A stretch of 64,000 bases of DNA, from NCBI GenBank assembly GCA_040881685.1, contig JBBECS010000050.1:137588-201587 (forward strand). The letters are read 5' to 3'. Every line of letters starts with the position of its first letter. Within the stretch, counting starts at the first letter, position 1. This document shows, piece after piece, positions 22,380 through 37,689 of the stretch. The notes beneath the pieces were generated by a model that worked only from the letters and a program-made list of their open reading frames with translations, had not been told where the DNA came from and ran no database searches. The translations under genes and the position numbers were made by a program. This DNA is from Acidimicrobiia bacterium. GTDB taxonomy: Bacteria > Actinomycetota > Acidimicrobiia > IMCC26256 > PALSA-555.

Positions 22380-22463
22380 TGTCGGAGGGGGGACTTGAAC
22401 CCCCACGCCCTTGCGGGCACTAGCCCCTCAAGCTAGCGCGTCTGCCAATTCCGCCACTCCGAC
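22380..22463 (-). tRNA. tRNA-Leu (anticodon GAG)
   Basis: The minus strand folds into a class II tRNA. The acceptor stem GTCGGAG/CTCCGAC pairs 22457-22463 with 22381-22387, with discriminator A at 22380. The anticodon stem-loop is CTAGC-TTGAGGG-GCTAG, anticodon GAG. A variable arm TGCCCGCAAGGGCG and the T-arm GGGGGTTCAAGTCCCCC follow. The 3' CCA is not encoded. Its 3' end is the source of the repeat family spread over the preceding 10 kb. Confidence 0.95.
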
Positions 22464-32482: not shown

Positions 32483-33559
32483 TCATCTGGACTCCAGTTC
32501 TCCGCTCTCGGCGCCTTCGGCGCCGGGTCGCTTGGGCCCCGGCTCACTGCGGCGCAGGGTACCTGCGCCGCGGACGTTCGCCTCCAGCAGATCGCGGAGC
32601 GCCGTCGCCAATCTCGCGGGATCGTGCGCCACACCTCGGGGCACCGTCACCTCGGCGGCGACGGGACGCGCGCCCAACTCCTGGATCTCGCCCTCGTCGC
32701 ATGCGAGCGCCGTCGGACCGTACAGGAACGCGTCGACCCGAGCCCCGTGCTCCAGCACCGCACGCAAGTGGTCGGCGGCATCCAGACCTTCGGTCTCCGG
32801 CAGCTGCGACCGGAGGTTGCACACCTGGACGACCTGCGCCTGTGTGGACGCGACCGCGTCCCGCAGCGCGGGCACGGCGAGCACCGGCAGCAAGCTGGTG
32901 AAGAGCGACCCCGGCGCCAGCACGACCTGGTCGGCATCGGCGATGGCCGCCACGGCATCGGGATGAGCAGGCGCATCGGCAGGAACGAGCTCGACGTGGC
33001 GGATCCGACCGGAGACGTTCATGACCGCGACCTGGCCCTCTACTGACCGGCCGCCGGCCGACTCGCTGTCGACCTGGGCCTTGAGCACCACAGGGTCGGT
33101 CGTCGCAGGCAAGACGCGGCCGACGACCTCGAGCAGGCGCCCAGCTTCATCGATTGCCGCGGCGAAGTCGGAGAGCGTCTCCGCGAGGCCGACGAGCACG
33201 AGGTTGCCGAGCGCGTGCCCGTCGAGGTCGCCGCTCACGAACCGGTGCTCGAACGCGTCGGCCCATCTGTTTCCCGGCGCGGCGAGTGCCACGAGGCATT
33301 TGCGTACGTCACCGGGCGCGGGCACATCGAGGTCGCGGCGGAGACGGCCCGACGAGCCGCCGTCATCGGCCACGCTCACGACCGCGGTGGTCGCGTCGGC
33401 GTACTGACGGATGGCACGCAGCGCAACGGCGAGTCCGTGCCCGCCACCGAGTGCGACGACTTTCCCGCTCTTGCCGCCTGCGGCGGCGGGCCGCTCGGGC
33501 CCCGCCTCGCTGCGGCGCAGGGTACCTGCGCCGCGATCGCTCGCCTCAGGTTCAGCCAC
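32483..33559 (-). CDS. yvcK: YvcK/CofD-like gluconeogenesis regulator
   Basis: The GTG at 33559 overlaps the end of rapZ by 8 nt and gives 358 residues. The UPF0052/CofD core starts at KVVALGGGHGLAVALRAI, with VSVADDGGSSGRLRRDL and APGDVRKCLVALA. The family binds UDP-sugars and supports cell-wall synthesis on gluconeogenic substrates. Oddly, both ends are encoded by a palindromic repeat: RGAGTLRRSEAGPERPAAAG near the N-terminus and RGAGTLRRSEPGPKRPGAEG at the C-terminus. These extensions are not part of the normal family domain and are predicted to be disordered. Confidence 0.9.
   Translation of the reverse strand: MAEPEASDRGAGTLRRSEAGPERPAAAGGKSGKVVALGGGHGLAVALRAIRQYADATTAVVSVADDGGSSGRLRRDLDVPAPGDVRKCLVALAAPGNRWADAFEHRFVSGDLDGHALGNLVLVGLAETLSDFAAAIDEAGRLLEVVGRVLPATTDPVVLKAQVDSESAGGRSVEGQVAVMNVSGRIRHVELVPADAPAHPDAVAAIADADQVVLAPGSLFTSLLPVLAVPALRDAVASTQAQVVQVCNLRSQLPETEGLDAADHLRAVLEHGARVDAFLYGPTALACDEGEIQELGARPVAAEVTVPRGVAHDPARLATALRDLLEANVRGAGTLRRSEPGPKRPGAEGAESGELESR
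32504..32573. repeat. Palindromic element, copy B1, inside the 3' end of yvcK
   Basis: Two hairpins: 32549-32571 (10-bp stem GCGGCGCAGG / CCTGCGCCGC, loop GTA) and 32509-32525 (CGGCGCC, loop TTC, GGCGCCG). It is translated as the last residues of YvcK. Confidence 0.85.
33467..33536. repeat. Palindromic element, copy B2, inside the 5' end of yvcK
   Basis: Same arrangement as B1: main hairpin 33512-33534 with the identical 10-bp stem and GTA loop, second hairpin 33472-33486 (GCCGCC-TGC-GGCGGC). It is translated as residues about 8-31 of YvcK. Confidence 0.85.
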
Positions 33560-34424
33560 GGTCGAGATCCCGATGATGGACGCGAGCGGGGAAGCCGAGC
33601 TTGTCGAGCACCTTCGCCAGCTCGGTTGCGATGACGACCCCCCGGTGGCGGCCGCCGGTGCAGCCGACTCCGATCGAGAGGTACGCCTTGCCCTCACGCG
33701 CGTAGGCCGGGAGCAGCAGCTCGAAGAGGCGCGCGAGCTCCTCGAGGAATGCCTTCGCCTCGGGCTGCTGGAGCACGTAGCGCCGCACCTTGGCATCGGT
33801 GCCCGGGAGCGGGCGGAGTCGCTCCACCCAATGCGGATTTGGCAGAAAGCGGCAGTCGAACACCAGGTCCACGTCGAGAGGCACACCGTGCTTGTACCCG
33901 AACGACACCACGCTGGCCTGGAGTGGAGCCCCGGCGTGCTCGTCCTCGGTGAAGAGCTCCCGTACGCGCTCTCGGAGCTCGTGCACGTTGAAGTTCGAAG
34001 TGTCGAGTACCAGGTCGGCTTGGCCCTTGAGCTCTTCGAGCAGCTCGCGCTCTCGCGCGATGCCCTCGGACATCCGGTCCGGGCCGGCCAGCGGATGGGG
34101 ACGACGCGACGCTTCGAACCGGCGGACGAGGGTCTCGTCGCTGGCATCGAGGAACAGCACGCGCGTGCGCACGCCCGACTCGCGCAGCTCCGAGAGCGCG
34201 GCGGCAAGCTCTTCCATGAATGCACCCGAACGAACGTCCACCACGAGCGCATAGAGAGTGGGGCGATCCCCCTCACGCGCCAGCTCGGCGACCTTGGGGA
34301 TGAGCGCCGGCGGCACGTTGTCGATCACGAAGAACCCGACGTCCTCGAGACTGTCCGCGACCGATGAGCGGCCCGCACCCGACATCCCGGTGACGATCAT
34401 GACTTCGAGCGGATGCTCCGTCAC
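33552..34424 (-). CDS. rapZ: RapZ/YvcJ-family nucleotide-binding protein
   Basis: GTG 34424 overlaps the uvrC stop (GTGA) and gives 290 residues. The P-loop reads VTGMSGAGRSSVADSLEDVG, with Arg in place of the usual Lys, as is common in actinobacterial homologues. The middle has VLFLDASDETLVRRFEASRR and the C-terminal domain SIGVGCTGGRHRGVVIATEL. In proteobacteria RapZ controls glmS mRNA decay; the actinobacterial role is less clear. It is followed by yvcK with overlap, the normal gene order. Confidence 0.95.
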   Translation of the reverse strand: MTEHPLEVMIVTGMSGAGRSSVADSLEDVGFFVIDNVPPALIPKVAELAREGDRPTLYALVVDVRSGAFMEELAAALSELRESGVRTRVLFLDASDETLVRRFEASRRPHPLAGPDRMSEGIARERELLEELKGQADLVLDTSNFNVHELRERVRELFTEDEHAGAPLQASVVSFGYKHGVPLDVDLVFDCRFLPNPHWVERLRPLPGTDAKVRRYVLQQPEAKAFLEELARLFELLLPAYAREGKAYLSIGVGCTGGRHRGVVIATELAKVLDKLGFPARVHHRDLDRG

Positions 34425-36286
34425 CGTGCCGGCCCTTCCTGCGAGTGCAGCTGCTCGTAGACGGCCGTGGCGACGGCCTCGGGCAGCCACGACAAGGCCT
34501 TGAGAGCATCGAGCTCAACGAGACGCAGCTTCTTCACGGACCCGAACTCTCGCAGGAGTCGGGTGCGGCGCGTCGGGCCGAGGCCCGGCACGTCGTCCAG
34601 GACCGAGCGGGTCACGGTCTTCGCGCGGAGCTTCCGGTGATACGTGATCGCGGACCGGTGCGCCTCGTCACGCACCTGCTGGAGCAGGAAGAGCGCTTCG
34701 GAGTCGCGCGCGATGCGCACCGGTTCGTCCCGGTCGGGTAGGTACACCTCTTCGAACCGCTTGGCGAGCGCGGCCACCGAGACATCTTCGAGGCCCAGCT
34801 CTTCGAGCACGCGGATCGCCACGTTGAGCTGACCGCGCCCGCCGTCTACGAGCAGCAGGTTCGGAGGGTACGCGAACCGGCGACCTCGCCGAGCCCCCTC
34901 CTCGCGGTCTTCGAGGTAGCGCTGGAAGCGTCGGGTGAGTACCTCCTCCATCGCCGCGAAGTCGTCTTGGCCCTCTTGCGACCGGACCTTGAAGTGGCGG
35001 TAGTCCGAGCGCTTGGCGAGGCCATCCTCCATGACGACCATCGAGCCGACGATCTCGGTTCCTTGCAGGTTCGAGATGTCGAAGCACTCGATGCGCAGGG
35101 GTGCGTCCGGCAGGTCGAGCGCGGCTTGCAGTGCCGTGAGCGCACGCGCGCGTGCGTTGTGATCGCTCGCGCGACGGAGGCGGTGCTGAACGAATGCCTC
35201 CTCCGCGTTCCGAGTGACTGTGCTCAGCAACTCGCGCTTCGCGCCCCGTCGCGGAACTCGCACGCGCACTGGCGCGCCGCGTGCCTTGGTGAGGAAGGCC
35301 TCGTACAGCTGAATGTTCTCCGGCTCCACCGGCACGAGCACCTCGCGCGGCACGTCCTCGGCGGGGGCGTCCGCGTACAACTGCTCGAGCAGTCGCCCGA
35401 TCAACGCGGGAGTGTCGAGGTCCTCGACCTTGTCGACGACCAGGCCCTTGCGCCCGACCACGCGGCCCCGACGGACCAGGAACACCTGCACCGCCGCCTC
35501 GAGTGGGTCCTCGGCCAGCGCGATCGCGTCGAAGTCCTCTTCCTTGGGTGCCACCATCTGTTGGCGCTCGATGGCCTTGCGCACCGACGTGATCTGATCT
35601 CGAACTCGAGCCGCCCGCTCGAACTCGAGCGAGTCGGCCGATTCGTGCATCGCCTTGTCGAGGCGATCGAGGACCGCGGCGGTGTCACCGTCTAGGAAGC
35701 CGAGCAGCTCCTTAACGAGATCGTCGTAGTCGGTCTTGGAGACCTCACCAACGCACGGCGCTGCGCACTTCTCGATGTGTGCATAGAGGCACGGGCGCCC
35801 GAGCCGGTGGTGGCGGTCGAACTTCGGCTTGGTGCAGGTGCGGATCGGGAATGTGCGCAGCAAGAGATCGAGCGTCTCGCGGATCGCATAGGCGTGCGCA
35901 TACGGACCGAAGTAGCGGACGCCCTTCCGCTTGGCCCCTCGGAGCACCATGGCCCGCGGCCATTCCTCGTCGAGCGTCACCGCGAGGTACGGATATGACT
36001 TGTCGTCCTTGTAGCGGATGTTGAAGCGCGGGTGGTGCCGTTTGATCAGGTTGTACTCGAGGAACAGCGCCTCGACCTCGTTGCGGACCTCGATCCACTC
36101 GACCGTCTCGGCTGCGGTCACCATCTGGCGCGTGCGGGACAGCAGCGTGTCGGGCGCGGCGAAATAGTTCGCGAGCCTGTTCCGCAGGCTGCTGGCCTTA
36201 CCCACGTAAAGGACGCGGCCCTGGGCGTCCTTGAACTGGTACGAGCCCGGCCCGTCGGGGATCGTCGCGGGCGGTGGGCGCAGCAC
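34421..36286 (-). CDS. uvrC: Excinuclease ABC subunit C
   Basis: GTG 36286 gives 621 residues beginning VLRPPPATIPDGPGSYQFKD; the open frame continues upstream but without family similarity. The N-terminal GIY-YIG nuclease domain (GPGSYQFKDAQGRVLYVGKA) makes the 3' incision. A CxxxxC-type cysteine cluster follows (RPCLYAHIEKCAAPCVGEVS), then the UVR segment, the RNase H-like domain with RIECFDISNLQGTEIVGSMV for the 5' incision and C-terminal helix-hairpin-helix repeats (DDVPGLGPTRRTRLLREFGS). uvrA and uvrB are also in the window. It heads the uvrC-rapZ-yvcK run. Confidence 0.96.
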   Translation of the reverse strand: MLRPPPATIPDGPGSYQFKDAQGRVLYVGKASSLRNRLANYFAAPDTLLSRTRQMVTAAETVEWIEVRNEVEALFLEYNLIKRHHPRFNIRYKDDKSYPYLAVTLDEEWPRAMVLRGAKRKGVRYFGPYAHAYAIRETLDLLLRTFPIRTCTKPKFDRHHRLGRPCLYAHIEKCAAPCVGEVSKTDYDDLVKELLGFLDGDTAAVLDRLDKAMHESADSLEFERAARVRDQITSVRKAIERQQMVAPKEEDFDAIALAEDPLEAAVQVFLVRRGRVVGRKGLVVDKVEDLDTPALIGRLLEQLYADAPAEDVPREVLVPVEPENIQLYEAFLTKARGAPVRVRVPRRGAKRELLSTVTRNAEEAFVQHRLRRASDHNARARALTALQAALDLPDAPLRIECFDISNLQGTEIVGSMVVMEDGLAKRSDYRHFKVRSQEGQDDFAAMEEVLTRRFQRYLEDREEGARRGRRFAYPPNLLLVDGGRGQLNVAIRVLEELGLEDVSVAALAKRFEEVYLPDRDEPVRIARDSEALFLLQQVRDEAHRSAITYHRKLRAKTVTRSVLDDVPGLGPTRRTRLLREFGSVKKLRLVELDALKALSWLPEAVATAVYEQLHSQEGPAR

Positions 36287-36439
36287 ACCCCCATTGTCCC
36301 CCGCGACGACCCGTAGCTGGCGAGCGTCCCGAAGGGCGGCGGTGGCGTCCGTGCGGCTGTGCCGTCGGACGCCGCAGGAGACGAAGCCTGCGGAATCGAC
36401 CAATGGTGCAGGTATCGTGCCGCCGAGCGAGCGGTACAG

Positions 36440-36564
36440 TGGAAGAGGCCGGCCTGGAAGAACCGGCCACAAGATCGGCTTCGGGGCCGACAACCCCGCG
36501 GTGTGGCGACCAGGCTGTCCCCGCCGGCCAATACCGGAGCCGCCCCACAAAGGGGCTCGACATC
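36440..36564 (+). promoter_or_regulatory. Structured nadA leader, candidate NAD+-responsive riboswitch
   Basis: The leader contains a hairpin GGCCGG (36447-36452) / CCGGCC (36463-36468), then GGCTTC (36477-36482) that can pair with GGAGCC (36536-36541), enclosing ACAACCCCG (36490-36498) and a CGGT/ACCG helix (36499-36502, 36533-36536). GAGCC (36537-36541) can instead pair with GGCTC (36554-36558), and GCCCC (36542-36546) with GGGGC (36552-36556), which would bury the Shine-Dalgarno AAAGGGG (36549-36555). These are mutually exclusive folds. The ACAACCCCG element and closing stem recall the NAD+-I (nadA motif) riboswitch. The identity is from memory and unverified. Confidence 0.45.
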
Positions 36565-37689
36565 ATGCTGCGACTCCAGGTCCAACTGCCGGACCGCTAC
36601 ACCCACGCGACGCCCGATCAGCTCGATGAGTGGATCGGCGCAGCCAAGGACTCGCTGGGCGATCGGCTGCTGATCCTCGGGCACCACTACCAGCGCCCCG
36701 AGGTCATCAAGTGGGCCGACCTGCGCGGCGACTCGTTCAAGCTCGCCCAGTGGGCGGCGGAGAACGACCACGCCACCGACATCGTGTTCTGCGGTGTGCA
36801 CTTCATGGCCGAGGCGGCCGACATCCTCACGGGTGACCATCAGCGAGTTGTGCTGCCCGACCTGAACGCAGGCTGCTCGATGGCCGACATGGCCGACATC
36901 GACCAGGTCGAAGAGGCCTGGGAGGAGATCGCGTCGGTCACCGACATCAGTCGCGTCGTTCCCATCACGTACATGAACTCCTCCGCGGCGTTGAAGGCAT
37001 TCGTGGGTGACCACGGTGGCGCGGTGTGCACGTCGTCGAACGCGCAGGCGATCCTCGAATGGGCCTTCGAGCGGGGCGACAAGGTGCTGTTCTTCCCCGA
37101 CCAGCACCTCGGTCGCAACACCGGGTTCACGATGGGCTACGACGAGTCCCACATGCGCGTATGGAACCCGCATCGTGACCTCGGTGGCATGACCGACCGA
37201 GACGTGAAGGAGGCAACCTTCCTGCTTTGGAAGGGTCACTGCACGGTGCACCAGCGGTTCCTGCCCGAGCACGTGGCCGCGTTCCGCGCGGAGCACCCAG
37301 ATGGCGAAGTGATCGTGCACCCTGAATGCCGGCACGAGGTTGCGGAGCTGGCCGATCGCGTCGGCTCCACCGAGCGCATCATGGAGTGGGTCGATGCCGC
37401 GCCGACCGGCTCGGCGATGGCGATCGGCACCGAGATCCACATGATCCAGCGGCTCGCGTCGGAACATCCCGACAAGACGGTGGTGTCACTCGACCCGCTC
37501 GTCTGCCCGTGCTCCACGATGTTCCGCATCGACGGACCACACCTGGCGTGGTGCTTGGAATCCCTCGCGCGTGGCGAGGTGGTGAATCAGATCGTCGTCG
37601 ACGACCGCACCGCCGAGTCAGCACGGGTTGCGCTCCAACGCATGCTCGACATCAAAGGCGCGCCCGTGGAGCCGAGCAAGGTCGACTAA
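36565..37689 (+). CDS. nadA: Quinolinate synthase
   Basis: ATG 36565 follows an AAAGGGG ribosome-binding site; the open frame upstream is leader sequence. The 374-residue enzyme condenses iminoaspartate with dihydroxyacetone phosphate to quinolinate, using a [4Fe-4S] cluster. Candidate cluster cysteines lie in DLNAGCSMADMAD, WKGHCTVHQRF and PLVCPCSTMFRI; the substrate residues YMNSSAALKAF and PECRHEV are present. No nadB or nadC is adjacent. Its stop codon overlaps the stop of the convergent glycosyltransferase gene. Confidence 0.95.
   Translation: MLRLQVQLPDRYTHATPDQLDEWIGAAKDSLGDRLLILGHHYQRPEVIKWADLRGDSFKLAQWAAENDHATDIVFCGVHFMAEAADILTGDHQRVVLPDLNAGCSMADMADIDQVEEAWEEIASVTDISRVVPITYMNSSAALKAFVGDHGGAVCTSSNAQAILEWAFERGDKVLFFPDQHLGRNTGFTMGYDESHMRVWNPHRDLGGMTDRDVKEATFLLWKGHCTVHQRFLPEHVAAFRAEHPDGEVIVHPECRHEVAELADRVGSTERIMEWVDAAPTGSAMAIGTEIHMIQRLASEHPDKTVVSLDPLVCPCSTMFRIDGPHLAWCLESLARGEVVNQIVVDDRTAESARVALQRMLDIKGAPVEPSKVD

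Follow-up and report, generated by a model that had tools for sequence, protein, structure and literature searches.

Does the leader of nadA in an acidimicrobial genome contain a regulatory RNA and, if so, what would that RNA sense? The question is raised by the window (the whole stretch of DNA analysed, 64,000 nt), in which nadA, encoding a quinolinate synthase of 374 amino acids, occupies 36565–37689 of the plus strand (ATG at 36565, stop at 37689; TIGR00550, 315 bits against a cutoff of 263). A first-pass annotation had proposed that the sequence preceding this gene is a structured regulatory RNA, with riboswitch-like alternative pairing, that recalls the NAD+-I riboswitch. The elements it named were found in place: GGCTT at 36477–36481, the ACAACCCCG box at 36490–36498, GAGCC at 36537–36541, GCCCC at 36542–36546, GGGGC at 36552–36556 and GGCTC at 36554–36558. 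As set out below, a conserved pseudoknotted RNA found in nadA leaders only, probably where the transcript starts, carries an NAD+-I-like J1 bulge on a new scaffold. From the sequence comparisons, the nadA leader is probably an undescribed sensor that shuts off NAD synthesis in Acidimicrobiia.

Genomic context and promoter

The RNA sits between nadA and uvrC, which starts near 36290 on the minus strand. yvcK, rapZ and uvrC are arranged in series on that strand at 32483–36290, adjoining nadA (YvcK and RapZ were matched by profile search); we take the rapZ-yvcK-uvrC order next to nadA to be the usual actinobacterial cluster. The genome to which the window belongs has one copy of the RNA, at nadA, and its nadC is on a separate contig. 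The sole Rfam match at gathering level in the window was a tRNA gene at 22380–22463 on the minus strand (RF00005, 52.9 bits).

A −10 box, TACAGT, was located at 36435–36440 on the plus strand by counting TANNNT patterns across leaders. TANNNT ended 3–18 nt 5′ of the RNA core in 144 of 147 leaders, compared with approximately 11 expected, and the distance was mostly 4–8 nt. Since the promoter box is at the 5′ edge of the RNA in most leaders, the nadA transcript probably begins at that edge, a few nucleotides 5′ of the RNA.

Evidence for a conserved RNA

Taken alone, the window sequence folds no better than its shuffled versions (z = −0.99), and whether the RNA is real was therefore decided by comparison. 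In a DNA search, the leader was present in about half of 61 related genomes, with the same stretch recovered each time. One covariance model (R1) was built from ten leaders and a second (R2) from 82 sequences. Among 82 distinct sequences, 96.5% of cells were paired and 20 of the 25 helix pairs had changed on both sides, which is the covariation across related nadA leaders that the first-pass annotation had proposed to look for. The covariation score was 0.414; the mean for shuffles was 0.157, none of 500 shuffles reached 0.414, and slid structures scored at most 0.087. Because the shuffles ignore relatedness, pair changes were also mapped by parsimony on a tree of NadA proteins, giving approximately 173 compensatory events overall, of which 14 fell in the loop-loop helix, itself 98% paired. 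G-U pairs are found when the sequence is read in the nadA sense, and this is accordingly the sense of the RNA.

The unremarkable folding energy of the single sequence is what might be expected if the complementarity were due to chance, in an intergenic region rich in GC. That explanation is refuted by the covariation, by the compensatory events and by conservation across many families, and the probability left to it is negligible. The structured RNA at the nadA leader is real and is larger than first described: the earlier annotation had missed the 5′ hairpin (36447–36468) and the loop-loop pairing of 36453–36457 with 36510–36514. Its view of the leader as a structured regulatory RNA of this gene is supported.

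Architecture of the leader RNA

The RNA spans 36447–36541 on the plus strand (approximately 95 nt), and all of its elements are given on that strand. It opens with a 5′ hairpin, PA, in which GGCCGG (36447–36452) is paired with CCGGCC (36463–36468); 5 of 6 pairs had changed on both sides and 95.5% of cells were paired. The PA loop, CCUGG (36453–36457), is the 5′ strand of the loop-loop pseudoknot and CCAGG (36510–36514) is the 3′ strand, the middle pair having been observed as UA, CG, GC and AU. A linker separates PA from P1. In the outer part of P1 (GGCUUCGG at 36477–36484 with CCGGAGCC at 36534–36541), 8 of 8 pairs had changed on both sides, bearing out the closing stem that had been proposed around the ACAACCCCG box. 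The inner part (GGCCG at 36485–36489 with CGGCC at 36525–36529; 4 of 5 pairs changed on both sides) is set off from the outer part by an internal loop on the 3′ side, AAUA (36530–36533), and its final two pairs 5′ of the bulge are C:G and then G:C.

The bulge itself, J1, consists of 8 nt (ACAACCCC, 36490–36497), with a family consensus, ACANMCCC, taken from column counts, 138 parsed cores and in-register alignments to Rfam family RF03013. J1 is followed by P2, in which GCGG (36498–36501) is paired with CCGC (36521–36524; 3 of 4 pairs changed on both sides, 98.8% paired). Within 36502–36520, a 5′ bulge (UGU, 36502–36504; 2–4 nt in the family) includes a G in all 138 parsed cores; by column counts and in the parsed cores, GGCGA (36505–36509) is invariant and CUG (36515–36517) nearly so, and the main loop holds both along with CCAGG. 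The GG/CC pairing of 36505–36506 with 36519–36520 is putative, as it hardly varies and covariation offers no proof of it. Inspection by eye revealed no covariation pattern between the 5′ bulge and the opposing Y. Pairing of GGGG (36483–36486) with the CCCC of J1 was considered and rejected, GGGG frequently being GAGG or another sequence in the family. In one divergent member (L246, 416–506), UUCCCG in the region of the 5′ hairpin could pair with CGGGAA in the main loop, replacing CCUGG/CCAGG; this is perhaps the same loop-loop contact rebuilt.

Distribution and linkage to nadA

In a sample of 345 Acidimicrobiia genomes, the RNA was detected in 83 by R1 and in 86 by R2, and the actinobacterial occurrence that the first-pass annotation would have found notable is supported. 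In a phylum-wide sample of 397 genomes, R1 and R2 gave no credible match outside Acidimicrobiia; the lone weak match outside the class (G467) was due to chance, without nadA nearby. Scanning 84,980 species genomes for a sequence pattern gave at least 119 stretches; among the matches listed, 116 were true members as judged by the models and 3 were chance. Pattern matches in Caldimonas, Hasllibacter and Streptomyces were chance matches. The names of the relatives were Acidimicrobiia, Acidimicrobiales, Microthrixaceae, Candidatus Microthrix and Acidiferrimicrobium, which together with the rapZ-yvcK-uvrC gene order puts the window in Acidimicrobiia (Actinomycetota). MAGs titled Acidobacteriota or Acidobacteria (L142, L184, L217) or Bifidobacterium breve (L203) also contained the RNA; their NadA proteins are 75–84% identical to Acidimicrobiia NadA, so these records are read as probably mislabelled.

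nadA comes after the RNA in every case where the contig extends far enough. In the first set (A4), the RNA was 12–70 nt upstream of nadA in 84 of 84 cases, mostly at approximately 20 nt. In the second set, consisting of named genomes, it was directly upstream of nadA in 72 of 77; of the remaining five, four stopped at the end of a contig or close to it, and the fifth had an imprecise tblastn match start. Four divergent members (L232, L246, L247 and L248) are likewise upstream of nadA. One MAG (G034) contained two different copies of the RNA (L013 and L096), each before a nadA, reflecting either duplication or contamination. No trace of the RNA was found upstream of six close NadA homologs (L228, L230, L231, L233, L234 and L235; 58–75% identical), which are read as natural losses of the RNA. 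The class also contains a second, distant type of NadA (L237–L243; 34–47% identical), and no convincing copy of the RNA was found near it.

Linkage this strict to one gene fits autoregulation, as would occur if the leader depended on a protein and the pseudoknotted RNA were recognized by an RNA-binding repressor, possibly NadA itself. Several RNA leaders of similar size are protein sites, and the conserved unpaired GGCGA, with CUG, adjoining the SD would suit such a site. Against a protein-dependent leader, the RNA and nadA are separable, as the six close homologs lacking the RNA show, and J1 matches an established small-molecule pocket in its bulge, in its flanking pairs and even in the places that tolerate change, a likeness for which a protein site would have no use. 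We consider it very unlikely that this leader depends on a protein, and favor a small molecule.

Relation of J1 to the NAD+-I riboswitch

In domain 1 of NAD+-I, J1 is ACANCCCC, in which A10 is metal-bound, A11 is flipped out, C12 and C15 are stacked, and C13 and C14 form pairs with the two Gs of a GYG sequence, G38 and G36, respectively; the penultimate pair, C6:G47, reads ADP, and P1a (7 bp) starts with G16:C45 (PMC7297122, PMC7708056). Binding is lost in the mutants G36C and G38C (PMC7708056), and two domains are required for repression (PMC10702441).

The eight J1 columns of the nadA leaders are A (80 of 84), C (84), A (84), N (A 46, T 30, C 7, G 1), C (76, with A in 8), C (81), C (83) and C (83), followed by G (83). 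Variation is at the fourth place, the equivalent of A11, which is free, and at the fifth, the equivalent of C12, which is C or A; the sixth to eighth places are C in nearly all. J1 is ACANCCCC in 116 of 138 parsed cores and mostly ACANACCC in the rest. The penultimate C:G pair 5′ of J1 was present in 81 of 81 scored sequences (with CG as the last two 5′ bases in 137 of 138 parsed cores) and the G:C pair after J1 in 81 of 82. On the 3′ strand, the place of GYG lies at a distance of 7 nt from the equivalent of C45; CUG was found there in 136 of 138 parsed cores, retaining the second G and having C for the first. This 7-nt spacing holds in most members; of the stretch corresponding to the 7-bp P1a, covariation covers only part of a 4-bp stem, and the remainder hardly varies. 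By these alignments, J1 of the nadA leader appears to be the counterpart of NAD+-I J1 (A8–C15) and the start of P2 that of the start of P1a (G16–C45), with the GGCGA/CUG region (36502–36520) a probable counterpart of J2.

The model for NAD+-I (RF03013), the search that the first-pass annotation had suggested, was applied with permissive filters to stretches of 100 nt. Three of four members tried were aligned end to end in the same register, at 13.3 bits (window), 16.3 bits (L055) and 15.0 bits (L080) against a cutoff of 37.5; there was no match to the fourth, the distant L066. In all three RF03013 ranked first by E-value among 4227 families. With all families counted, the E-values were 1.0 (window), 0.14 (L055) and 0.32 (L080), and for RF03013 as a single named family they are, by division, about 2e-4, 3e-5 and 8e-5, respectively. 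The cutoff was reached in no genome scanned.

Like NAD+-I domain 1, the RNA lies upstream of nadA and has an SD near the 3′ end of the aptamer; its stem has a penultimate C:G pair, then an 8-nt bulge, ACANCCCC, in the 5′ strand and next a G:C pair, and a Y-G dinucleotide is found 7 nt away, counted from the upper stem's 3′ end. Unlike NAD+-I, whose second domain, in tandem with the first, has a comparable bulge and holds the RBS in P1′, it is a single domain followed by an SD hairpin after P1; CUG replaces GYG, the upper stem is broken by a 2–4 nt bulge, an extra 5′ hairpin has its loop paired with the main loop, the host is Acidimicrobiia rather than Acidobacteria, and the score is below the Rfam cutoff. 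No second NAD+-I domain is conserved in the leader, a stray second ACANMCC occurring in 16 of 145 leaders. The likeness to NAD+-I noted at first pass therefore extends to the bulge, its tolerant positions, the flanking pairs and the register of the alignment and stops short of plain membership, which was not assigned, the second domain and GYG being absent and the model score lying below the cutoff.

An ordinary but very divergent NAD+-I, derived by vertical descent or an old transfer and having lost domain 2, would have the function that we propose and would differ in ancestry. The whole-length, in-register RF03013 alignment, the same gene and the same pocket point to such an origin, which must also accommodate the missing domain 2 and GYG, the extra 5′ hairpin and pseudoknot, the restriction to Acidimicrobiia and a score under half the cutoff value; weighing these, we regard this ancestry as a real possibility, although a somewhat doubtful one. 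Only tentatively would we propose a third NAD+ riboswitch class, a compact single aptamer with an NAD+-I-type ADP pocket on an unrelated kissing-loop scaffold, reached by convergence or wholesale rebuilding and controlling nadA across Acidimicrobiia.

Another metabolite (ATP/ADP energy charge, nicotinate mononucleotide, quinolinate or aspartate) might be sensed instead, via the ADP pocket or with the pocket a chance look-alike. The recognizable part of NAD+-I is its ADP-binding part only, NAD+-I cannot itself tell NAD+ from ATP (PMC10702441), and no conserved element is assignable to the nicotinamide half. Given the exclusive linkage to nadA, however, NAD+ is the obvious end product, and quinolinate and aspartate are without ADP; a ligand other than NAD+ is accordingly judged unlikely.

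Comparison with other known systems

NAD+-II (the pnuC motif) similarly responds to compounds related to NAD+, and its action is presumed to be on translation; it differs in its genes and its fold, and its pseudoknot involves the RBS. Over the nadA leader, no Rfam family reached its gathering score and no pnuC family appeared in low-threshold scans. As described, the ubiB variant of the nadA motif joins an NAD+-I-type domain 1 to a different partner element (Malkowski et al. 2019, as cited in PMC7297122), a combination resembling that of the nadA leader. By that description, the partner in the ubiB variant is an 11-bp stem that lies downstream and contains the RBS, and the internal loop of domain 1 is retained, unlike the nadA-leader RNA, in which the partner is upstream and is joined via the loop-loop pseudoknot. 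No description of the RNA was found in a search covering Rfam 15 and the open-access literature.

Expression platform and proposed mechanism

Directly 3′ of P1, a short hairpin (GCCCC/GGGGC, 36542–36556, plus strand) lies over the SD stretch AAAGGGG and is the putative expression platform. In the family, P1 usually runs directly into a short hairpin whose 3′ arm includes the SD. SD pairing was 0.68, compared with 0.62 in shuffled controls (126 leaders; Wilcoxon p = 2e-4), a weak but consistent excess. The first-pass annotation had GAGCC switching between GGCTT upstream and GGCTC downstream, with the latter pairing acting together with GCCCC/GGGGC to hide the ribosome-binding site. The two downstream pairings do not form one structure: GGCTC and GGGGC overlap at 36554–36556, making them mutual rivals. 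Pairing of the 3′ strand of P1 with the downstream stretch (at least 5 pairs) was found in 37 leaders, compared with 29 expected from shuffles, and is thus no more frequent than by chance and not conserved, and the best window fold forced to hold GAGCC/GGCUC is 7 kcal/mol above the MFE; this switch was rejected. A search of the leaders for an alternative, ligand-free pairing found none. Sequestration of the SD is plausible on this model of the hairpin; because SD pairing is only weakly above controls and no alternative pairing was found, the switching step is a guess.

Taken together, we consider it likely that nadA mRNA starts with a cis-acting riboswitch of approximately 95 nt, a translational OFF switch for NAD+ (through its ADP moiety) with an NAD+-I-type pocket in a new architecture; both ligand binding and switching are predictions. 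Counting against this reading, CUG stands where NAD+-I has a GYG whose G36C and G38C mutants do not bind, the second domain that NAD+-I requires for repression is missing, and RF03013 scores well under its cutoff and fails to match L066. The J1 bulge would fold like J1 of NAD+-I domain 1 and bind NAD+ (or NADH) by its ADP moiety, together with Mg2+, and the loop-loop contact would supply the bracing given in NAD+-I by the GYG contact and the second domain. Ligand would then lock P1, which would stack on the adjoining SD-covering hairpin, and nadA translation would be off at high NAD+.

In crystals of NAD+-I, the ADP half alone is seen bound; what domain 2 does is under dispute, and there is no discrimination against ATP (PMC7297122, PMC7708056, PMC10702441). 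A natural RNA with the same pocket, minus domain 2 and the GYG contact, would directly test what those parts do. If the riboswitch reading is correct, RNA-based NAD+ sensing extends to a bacterial class that is large and for the most part uncultured, and a small cofactor pocket would be seen to have moved between scaffolds. Natural variants of the pocket also occur: in leaders L084, L090, L105, L106, L247 and L248, C replaces the A at the start of J1 (A8 in NAD+-I, where it stacks on the adenine of the ligand), and these variants may differ in ligand preference or have other ligands.
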